Notes under the pieces: generated by a model
What the model saw: only the letters and a program-made list of their open reading frames with translations
Told to the model about the DNA's origin: nothing
The model's database searches: none
Translations under genes and position numbers: made by a program
Assembly: GCA_025450375.1 (NCBI GenBank)
Contig: JANWHO010000113.1
Location: forward strand, 1 to 7,205
Reading direction: 5' to 3'
DNA: 7,205 nt
Origin: Chloroflexota bacterium
GTDB taxonomy: Bacteria; Chloroflexota; UBA5177; JANWHV01
Shown here: in pieces, positions 1,122 through 7,123 of the stretch
Layout of the letters: each line of letters opens with the position of its first letter
Numbering within the stretch: the stretch's first letter is position 1

Positions 1122-2834
1122 TCACTGTCCAAGACCATAGATGACCGCGTTCTCCACCTGAAAGACGGGCCGATAGTGGAGGCGCAGGAACGGTGCCAAG
1201 CCGGCGGCGGGCGGATTCGCGGGCTTGATGAGCACGACATAGGACGGCGGGTTTCCTCGTAGCCCGGGCAACACACTGGCGCCGCTGCCGGGAACCACGG
1301 GCCGGTAAAAGGCCGAGAGGAAGCGCGTCGCGTGTTCGTACCCCGAAAGGTAGTAGATCCACGGAGCGTTACCCCACACATAGAGGCGATTGGGAGGCCG
1401 GGGATGCCTTTTCAGATACTCCGCGACCGCGATGTTCCGCTCCACCCGAGGGTCGATCCGATTGCCGTACGCGGCATCATCCAGGCCGCCGGTCTGATGT
1501 AGCCAGAAATAGGCGTAGTAGGCCAGGGTGTCGCTCCCAGGCGCCGGATGCCCACCGCCGAGACGGAGGGCTACGAATGAGGTGAGCGGGACAAGGATGG
1601 CCCAGGCCGCCACCAGCCCAACTACCGTCCGTCGATAGGCGCTCGCCGATGACCGAGTGCCCACATCCGGCCGCGGCCCAGAGGAGTGAGCAGGTTGGCT
1701 CACATGCCCGGTTGTCCCCGTGACGAGATCGCCTGGGAGCGCATCTGGCTCACCCCCCTTCAACCTTGTTCCACGAAACCTGCCCACTCCTCTGGGCTGC
1801 GCCCCGCCCGCCACCGCCTTCTCCCGGACCAGCCCATCCAGCAGCAGCACCACACAGATGGCGGCTGGGACGACCGCTTGCAAGAAGTAGTGCGGGTAGG
1901 TGCGCCCGCTGACCAGCGCCCCCAGAAGCGCCAGTCCCAGCCACCAGGCGGCGCCGGCGCCAAAAGGAAGGCCGGCGCGGCGCCCGCGCCAGGCAATCAC
2001 GGCTCCGGCCCCCAGCGCGGCCAGTGGGGCCAACACGGTAAACAGTCCAACGATCGGCGAATGCAGGCTCTGCCCGGTGGAGACGTAGCCGCGATTGTAG
2101 CCGATGGTGGCATAAAGGGCGTCTCCTACCAGCCCCTGACCGGCCAGCCACCCGGTGACCACCCCGAGAGGAATCACGGCCCCTAGAAGAAGAGCGGCCA
2201 GCCGCGCAATCCGTCTTTTGTGGAATATGACCACCAGGGCCGCCGCCAGCCCGTCCGCTCCCGCCGGTAGCTTGAACAATACGCCAATCCCAAAAGCAAT
2301 ACCGGCAAACATGAGGGCCGGCCCGGAGGCAGGGAAGCGCGGACTATCGTCCGCCCTAGCGCGCTCGGCGCTCCACACCAGGGCCATGCCGATAGCGGAA
2401 GCGGCGGCGACAAAAATCTCGGCGTTTGCCTCGGTGCCGTCGATCAAGGGCAGATCCAATCCGATTCCGGCCACGATAACCGCCAGACGAGCGGCGCCGA
2501 TCCCGCATTCCGCCGCCATCAGGCGGTACAGGGCGGCCAGGGCAATCACCGAGGCGGCCAGGGCCAGCAGTCGCATGCTGGTGATGACGTGTCCGGCCCC
2601 CCCCAGACGCTCCGCCGTCGCGTTCACGAGATAGATCGCCGGCGGCTTGTTTTCCCAGACCTGCCGATAGAGTTTCTCCCCATGCAGCAGGGCTCGCCCG
2701 ACCATTGCGTAGACGCCTTCATCATTCAGCCAGGGAGGCTCTCCCAGGCCGGGAAGGCGCCAGAGGGTGCAGAACCCGATCAGCCCCCACGGAGCCAGAC
2801 GCTCGGCGAGCCTCCCACCGCTCAGGCGACCCAC
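1122..2834 (-). CDS. ArnT/GT39-like membrane glycosyltransferase with an in-frame palindromic insert
   Basis: This is a GT-C-fold polytopic membrane protein of about 570 residues, expected to move a sugar from a polyprenyl-phosphate donor onto an acceptor at the outer membrane face. The N-terminus has the acidic motif NDEGVYA (Asp38-Glu39) in the first extracytoplasmic loop, followed by LLHGEKLYRQVWENKPPAIYL (about 49-69). DGTEANAEIF (about 132-141) follows the next hydrophobic segments. Several hydrophobic helices are followed by a soluble C-terminal part with LYVWGNAPWIYYLSGYEHATRF. The reading frame continues upstream to 3536, but that stretch overlaps the PIG-V-like gene and shows no GT-C features. 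The GTG at 2834 is the first start next to the upstream stop (13-nt overlap), although its Shine-Dalgarno is weak. Residues about 345-388, between two membrane segments, are a polar Gly/Pro/Arg-rich insert encoded by a 25-bp-armed inverted repeat (1672-1801). The sugar and acceptor cannot be told. Confidence 0.88.
   Translation of the reverse strand: MGRLSGGRLAERLAPWGLIGFCTLWRLPGLGEPPWLNDEGVYAMVGRALLHGEKLYRQVWENKPPAIYLVNATAERLGGAGHVITSMRLLALAASVIALAALYRLMAAECGIGAARLAVIVAGIGLDLPLIDGTEANAEIFVAAASAIGMALVWSAERARADDSPRFPASGPALMFAGIAFGIGVLFKLPAGADGLAAALVVIFHKRRIARLAALLLGAVIPLGVVTGWLAGQGLVGDALYATIGYNRGYVSTGQSLHSPIVGLFTVLAPLAALGAGAVIAWRGRRAGLPFGAGAAWWLGLALLGALVSGRTYPHYFLQAVVPAAICVVLLLDGLVREKAVAGGAQPRGVGRFRGTRLKGGEPDALPGDLVTGTTGHVSQPAHSSGPRPDVGTRSSASAYRRTVVGLVAAWAILVPLTSFVALRLGGGHPAPGSDTLAYYAYFWLHQTGGLDDAAYGNRIDPRVERNIAVAEYLKRHPRPPNRLYVWGNAPWIYYLSGYEHATRFLSAFYRPVVPGSGASVLPGLRGNPPSYVVLIKPANPPAAGLAPFLRLHYRPVFQVENAVIYGLGQ
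1672..1801. repeat. Inverted-repeat (palindromic) element inside the GT39-like coding sequence
   Basis: The arms 1677-1696 (CCCAGAGGAGTGAGCAGGTT) and 1777-1796 (AACCTGCCCACTCCTCTGGG) are reverse complements at 19 of 20 positions. Pairing extends outward by five more positions, one of them G-U, giving arms 1672-1696 and 1777-1801. The ~80-nt centre contains the direct repeat GGCTCAC at 1697-1703 and 1747-1753. Read on the minus strand, the element is open and adds about 43 residues to a loop between predicted membrane helices. It resembles, in size and position, palindromic elements known to insert in frame into coding genes (Rickettsia palindromic elements are the named precedent). I see no clear target-site duplication. 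The arms are seen directly; mobility is inferred. Confidence 0.75.
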
Positions 2835-6778: not shown

Positions 6779-6871
6779 AGCCAGTCGGCACCTCCACGGC
6801 AAACGCGGCTAATCCTTACCCACATTTTCGCTCCAGGGGGAAGGATGGAGTTCGCGTCCGGGACGGGGCGC

Positions 6872-7059
6872 CCTGAAGCACAGAAAAACACAGAGGGAAT
6901 GGATGACACAGAGTGCGGCTCCGGTTCGCGCGGCGGTGATTGCAGGCAGGGCTTCCGCGGGGTTAGTAGCGTAGACATCCCTATCCCACCGCCTTACTCA
7001 CCCTTCTCCCAGGGTAGGCATCTGTGTTTTCCATTCCCTCGGTGCTTCTGTGCTTCAGG
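6872..7059. repeat. Long inverted-repeat element with CACAGAG-type arms
   Basis: The left arm 6872-6912 and right arm 7021-7059 pair in order. There are 13 bp (6872-6884 with 7047-7059), an 8x6 internal loop, 11 bp (6893-6903 with 7030-7040), a 3x3 loop and 6 bp (6907-6912 with 7021-7026). This totals 30 pairs around a ~108-nt centre. GCGCC (6868-6872) and GGCGC (7063-7067) can extend pairing at the base, partly competing with the stem. GGCGGTG (6932-6938) and CACCGCC (6987-6993) can form an inner stem. The left arm holds three CACAGA units. The element occupies the spacer between the DUF2079 gene and the gene at 7173. It looks like a palindromic or MITE-like interspersed repeat with no coding capacity; a structured RNA is possible. 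Confidence 0.75.
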
Positions 7060-7123
7060 AAGGGCGCGGAGCAGGTGCATCTCTCACCCTCCCATCCCCA
7101 CGCCGCCTGTATCCTATGAACGG

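Follow-up and report, generated by a model that had tools for sequence, protein, structure and literature searches.

An in-frame palindromic element in the linker of an ArnT/GT39-like glycosyltransferase gene from a probable member of the Chloroflexota

The window, by which we mean the whole analysed stretch of DNA of 7205 nt, contains seven genes or gene parts, one of which, an intact gene for an ArnT/GT39-like membrane glycosyltransferase, carries in frame an inverted repeat of 120 nt. The codons of both arms and of the loop between them are unlike those of the rest of the gene, and the linker in which they lie is longer than that of two close homologues. We consider it probable (about 0.6) that the segment is an insertion similar to the Rickettsia palindromic elements (RPE) and to MITEs, that is selfish DNA which has been translated rather than removed. 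The features referred to below are:

1122..2834, minus strand: host gene, ArnT/GT39-like membrane glycosyltransferase (PMT_2), intact, 570 codons
1677..1796, minus strand: core palindromic element, 120 nt, codons 347-386 (from the stem search; codon-usage segment 348-385)
1669..1696, no strand assigned: extended inverted-repeat arm, forming the element's 3' end as the gene is read (core 1677-1696; from the arm match)
1777..1804, no strand assigned: extended inverted-repeat arm, forming the element's 5' end as the gene is read (core 1777-1796; from the arm match)
1697..1776, minus strand: 80-nt loop between the core arms, with below-average codon usage for the gene and without known relative

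The glycosyltransferase gene (2834-1122 on the minus strand) consists of 570 codons plus the stop and begins with GTG, as does the database protein P0001, which is the entry of the window's own glycosyltransferase. The protein matches PMT_2 in Pfam, and when its predicted structure was compared by Foldseek, ArnT from Cupriavidus metallidurans ranked first (E 1.8e-07; TM 0.53, normalised to query length). In the alignment with homologues the similarity is collinear on either side of the palindrome. Pfam assigns the neighbours to a DUF2071 protein, a PIG-V-like protein, the small chain of carbamoyl-phosphate synthase, a DUF2079 protein and a partial FAD oxidoreductase. The host of the contig is probably a member of the Chloroflexota, since the homologues with a readable organism in their source names (P0005, P0013 and P0021) are all from Chloroflexi/Chloroflexota.

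The core arms of the palindrome (1677-1696 and 1777-1796), each of 20 nt, match at 19 of 20 positions and enclose a loop of 80 nt; with longer arms (1669-1696 and 1777-1804), which match at 25 of 28 positions, the palindrome extends to 136 nt. On the transcript strand the single mismatch of the core arms is a U-G wobble. The original prediction had placed the palindrome at 1672 to 1801, and this is exactly the position of the strongest ungapped stem found in the whole window when loops of up to 150 nt are allowed (score 19). The prediction of 25-nt arms with one G-U pair around a 19/20 core was right with respect to the core; at the predicted position, 23 of the 25 pairs are of the Watson-Crick type, and on either strand one of the remaining two forms a G-U wobble, which is not the same pair on both. 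The residues named, about 345 to 388, agree with the core palindrome, which occupies exactly 40 codons, 347-386, in frame with the glycosyltransferase. The gene frame is free of stops throughout the core, and one frame of the opposite strand is open, too.

The inverted repeat is real. Dinucleotide shuffles of the glycosyltransferase gene (n = 100) gave a mean stem score of 9.6 and synonymous-codon shuffles (n = 100) one of 9.9, with a maximum of 13 in either set; an origin of the stem by chance was rejected on the basis of these 200 shuffles. When folded as RNA, the palindrome yielded a z of −5.03 for the transcript strand and of −5.75 for the plus strand, none of 200 shuffles being equally stable in either case. 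A Rho-independent terminator was rejected upon reading of the sequence, which has no run of T after either arm, and an intron, an intein or a bypassed insert was rejected as superfluous because the reading frame is open all through.

How often stems of this strength occur within genes was estimated with 400 kb of a plasmid from Thermomicrobium roseum. Four stems scored at least 19, three of them outside open reading frames of at least 200 codons and one within a mechanically called reading frame, at a place where the incomplete gene table lists no gene and which lies amid palindromic repeats of approximately 60 nt. At a score of 15 there were 18 stems, eight of them inside reading frames of at least 200 codons. 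By these counts, which come from one replicon of a different genus, a stem with a score of 19 within a gene is rare. The repeats, which contain GTAGGGGCGAGGCG, form an array in a sparsely annotated stretch at positions 7800-9400 of the plasmid (L009); these are probably the GTAG repeats described for the species in PMC3733652, an assignment that we regard as putative.

Evidence of insertion that is independent of the palindrome came from codon usage. Codon preferences were learnt from four further genes of the window alone. As the score weighs each codon only against its synonyms, amino-acid composition has no bearing on it. Codons 347-386 scored −0.31 per codon, as against a mean of 0.30 (sd 0.16) elsewhere in the gene. 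None of 451 sliding windows of 40 codons clear of the element was as low (minimum −0.20). The same holds for 1354 such windows from the four neighbouring genes, on which the preferences had been trained (minimum 0.075), and for 20000 sets of 40 codons drawn at random from the remainder of the gene. GC3 minus GC2 was −0.08 in the element, to which neither the 451 windows of the gene (minimum 0.03) nor 273 windows in the other genes came down. All three parts of the palindrome were under the average of the gene (left arm −0.49, loop −0.16, right arm −0.69). The linker flanks outside it had native scores (0.56 and 0.32). Since arms and loop fit poorly and the flanks are native, the entire 120 nt, including the loop, most likely entered the gene as non-coding DNA. 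The codon usage of a hypervariable linker might be relaxed for other reasons, but the flanks of the linker do not show it.

The maximal segment of poor fit in the gene, which was located without using the position of the palindrome, comprises codons 348-385 and thus ends within one codon of the palindrome on each side. The support is only moderate, as a segment equally extreme was obtained in 175 of 5000 permutations of the codon order. Codons 178-217 also score low (−0.20), although less so than the element; within them, codons 203-217 (2184-2228, minus strand) form a second stretch of odd codon usage, next to a loop whose length differs between homologues.

Whether the segment is extra can be judged from the homologues, which were found in a search that scored the 7997 candidates with most shared words. 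The first alignment took 17 of 40 proteins; the linker lengths are from an alignment of 39 rows, in which P0040 is absent and from which P0033 was omitted because it ends there. Counting the window's own protein, 38 rows remain, and in these the counterpart of residues 325-411 is between 24 and 96 residues long, which disagrees with the assumption that GT-C proteins normally have a short loop at this place. From the same spread it follows that the site is tolerant; the linker is hypervariable. The stretch has 87 residues in the window protein, 58 and 57 in P0002 and P0003, which are both 78% identical to it, 40 in P0004 and 96 in P0005. The net excess over the linkers of P0002 and P0003 is therefore 29-30 codons. 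A comparison with homologues had been suggested as a way to recognize a clean insertion: two of the closest homologues, P0002 and P0003, do have shorter linkers, but where the element would be, 10-11 unrelated residues separate the matching flanks, and neither a clean empty site nor the same linker lacking the palindrome was seen. In 17 homologue linkers, those of at least 15 residues among the first 33 of the 39 rows, similarity to the element in any of its frames did not exceed that of shuffled sequences (lowest 14 of 200 shuffles). AlphaFold2, run with a 39-sequence alignment, gave pLDDT values below 50 for residues 1-5 and 350-389 and nowhere else; the 40 residues encoded by the palindrome are thus predicted to be disordered and to be part of a linker between two predicted transmembrane helices.

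Further copies were sought in viral contigs, phages, plasmids and the protein database, none of which is a DNA source where a copy would be expected. In the viral contigs the full arm was not matched, nor were paired 12-nt arms at a spacing of 70-100 nt; a 16-nt arm was found once at each of 15 loci, always unpaired, with 8-10 mismatches in 21 positions for the best opposite arm within approximately 320 nt. Plasmids did not yield a match to the element and phages only one of 24 nt (E 5), present in five records of PhiCh1, which is a chance match. The six-frame translation of the element had no match at E ≤10 among 6358 candidates of the protein database of approximately 160-507 residues, a range that excludes the window's own, longer protein and hence a positive control. 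When the two open frames were compared with 154 candidates of approximately 311-990 residues, only the window's own protein was found, which served as positive control. These translated searches depend on shared words of five residues, which diverged copies would escape. Rfam (E ≤1) did not recognize the element and had two weak matches elsewhere in the window, below the gathering score. No relative was confirmed for any of the pattern matches in genome contigs (55 by protein and four by alignment) or for the 21 stretches matched by alignment in viral contigs.

The original prediction also suggested looking for a transposase with ends matching those of the palindrome. None was found among the six window proteins checked against Pfam; the arms were not found in plasmids and phages and were unpaired in viral contigs. 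None of 22 mirrored boundaries showed a target-site duplication of 3-12 bp compatible with the frame; there were two 3-bp matches, neither of which sums to a multiple of three. Of the idea that a mobile palindromic repeat had landed in a tolerant loop and left the frame open, the insertion, the open frame, the tolerant linker predicted to be disordered and the foreign codon usage were borne out. Membership of a repeat family and mobility are unproven.

The reading that we favour is as follows. A non-coding element of approximately 120 nt, made up of terminal inverted repeats of 20-28 nt and a middle of 80 nt, would have arrived as one unit in the ArnT/GT39-like gene of an uncultured bacterium, in the hypervariable linker that joins two predicted transmembrane helices, possibly as a member of a repeat family that is mobilised in trans. 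It would have survived there thanks to a length divisible by three, to the absence of in-frame stops and to the tolerance of the protein for 40 extra residues as a disordered loop. Like an RPE or an intragenic MITE, it would thus have been kept and translated.

A possible, if unlikely, origin is a one-off local rearrangement, in which one arm arose as the reverse-complement copy of the other, by template switching or fold-back repair, within an already long and hypervariable linker; other DNA may or may not have been captured at the same time, and no mobile element would have taken part. Such events are described as generating inverted repeats in a single step (PMC8794818), which would agree with the lack of a second copy in viral contigs, phages, plasmids and the protein database; and since the linker varies between 24 and 96 residues across the family without any common sequence, it must also be lengthened by other means. 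However, one arm and the loop should then be native, whereas the poor codon fit is seen in the loop and in both arms, and the net gain of 29-30 codons over P0002 and P0003 is larger than one arm of 20-28 nt. The poor fit could also be due to selection for pairing if the palindrome were a functional RNA hairpin, regulatory or pacing translation, that evolved within coding sequence. The stable fold of the transcript strand (z −5.03) and the U-G wobble as sole mismatch of the core on that strand are in line with this proposal, which we nevertheless consider improbable: the loop is less paired and yet also fits poorly, Rfam has no match to the element (E ≤1) and the 17 homologue linkers show the sequence in no frame beyond the level of shuffles.

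Finally, the inverted copy could have been made during library preparation or assembly, as the palindrome is known from a single contig and the protein is carried by this contig only. That the frame is preserved across exactly 40 codons, that homology is collinear on both sides and that the window contains no other sequence from which the 80-nt middle could derive make such an artefact very improbable.

P0005, which is 77% identical to the window protein, has a long linker (residues 339-406) unrelated to that of the window. Back-translation of the peptides at the ends of this linker permits a perfect palindrome of 30 nt enclosing 141 nt. None of 200 composition-preserving shuffles was as good, and subsequently 12 of 6000 were, which corresponds to approximately 0.03 when 16 tests are allowed for. 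The test was applied to the first 32 of 39 rows without linkers shorter than 25 residues, and among the resulting 16 linkers, including that of P0001, only P0005 had 0 of 200. It is a weak test, the true palindrome of P0001 being matched by 40 of 200 shuffles. Over whole proteins P0005 scored 22.3 as compared to 29.0 for P0030 and 22.5 for P0017, with a null of up to 31.0 (156 shuffles). A second palindrome in the linker of P0005 is thus suggestive only, a lead and no result. Were it real, the linker of the family could be a hot spot that receives different in-frame palindromes in different lineages of uncultured GC-rich Chloroflexota (120 nt here, approximately 200 nt in P0005), and there would be an RPE-like class of mobile, protein-lengthening elements outside the Rickettsiales; we put this forward tentatively and regard it as rather doubtful.

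In the window itself, the spacer ahead of the last partial gene contains a second, unrelated palindrome of approximately 200 nt (6866-7067). Its arms 6872-6885 and 7046-7059 match at 14 of 14 positions, and 6881-6912 and 7021-7052 are 81% complementary across 32 nt; its RNA fold has a z of −4.54. A 25-letter pattern from it was not matched in viral contigs, nor was the region matched in plasmids. Palindromic elements may be common in the genome of the host.

If the element is repeated in that genome, proteins of a GC-rich lineage, probably free-living and distant from Rickettsia, would be shown to lengthen by way of in-frame palindromic insertion. The codon-usage test places the ends of an insert without the help of a second copy and could be used genome-wide to look for more such inserts.

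An in-frame palindromic element in Chloroflexota was not found reported in the literature searched, which is no proof of absence. The closest counterparts are the Rickettsia palindromic elements, described as palindromes of 100-150 bp within preexisting genes whose frame they do not destroy (PMC3767692, PMC10969869, PMC3733652). The element of the window, with its 120-136 nt and arms of 20-28 nt, in frame in an intact gene, is alike in form. According to the work on Rickettsia japonica, groups that differ by species may occupy nearby sites of the same gene, as do RPE-4, RPE-6 and RPE-7 (PMC3767692); similarly, P0001 and possibly P0005 hold different palindromes in the linker of the same gene. 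Differences are that RPEs are present in many copies per Rickettsia genome, whereas one copy of the window element is known, that those of R. conorii are reported to end in CGTC (PMC3733652), a motif which the window element has once, in the loop and not terminally, and that its host is GC-rich and probably belongs to the Chloroflexota.

MITEs are given as 70-300 bp long, with terminal inverted repeats of 15-30 bp and without coding capacity of their own (PMC3733652), and in-frame fusions of MITEs with genes are on record (PMC10969869). The window element resembles them in size, in the arms at its ends and in a codon usage unlike that of the surrounding genes; it differs in that no frame-fitting target-site duplication (3-12 bp), no transposase in the six window proteins and no other copy was found. 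GTAG-tagged REPs, among them those of the Chloroflexota relative Thermomicrobium roseum, are palindromic repeats that are sometimes intragenic and translated, as is the window element, intragenic REPs being reported from several species (PMC3733652); in contrast to these units of 20-40 bp, it has 120 nt and a single known copy, and neither GTAG nor CTAC occurs in 1677-1796, the tag thus being absent from both strands. As it lacks GTAG, as no duplication of 3-12 bp that would suit the frame was found and as a single copy is known, we assign it to no named family.

Two systems without a mobile element may be set beside these. In mitochondria of Nematomorpha, coding palindromes are described in which a reverse-complement repeat is likewise part of a gene that is still translated (PMC6649704); there the arms encode conserved residues, whereas both arms of the window element encode variable linker. 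Template switching accounts for inverted repeats (PMC8794818), but local copying leaves the poor codon fit of the loop and of both arms unexplained. By analogy, then, the element is in its working like the palindromes of the RPE, REP and MITE type.
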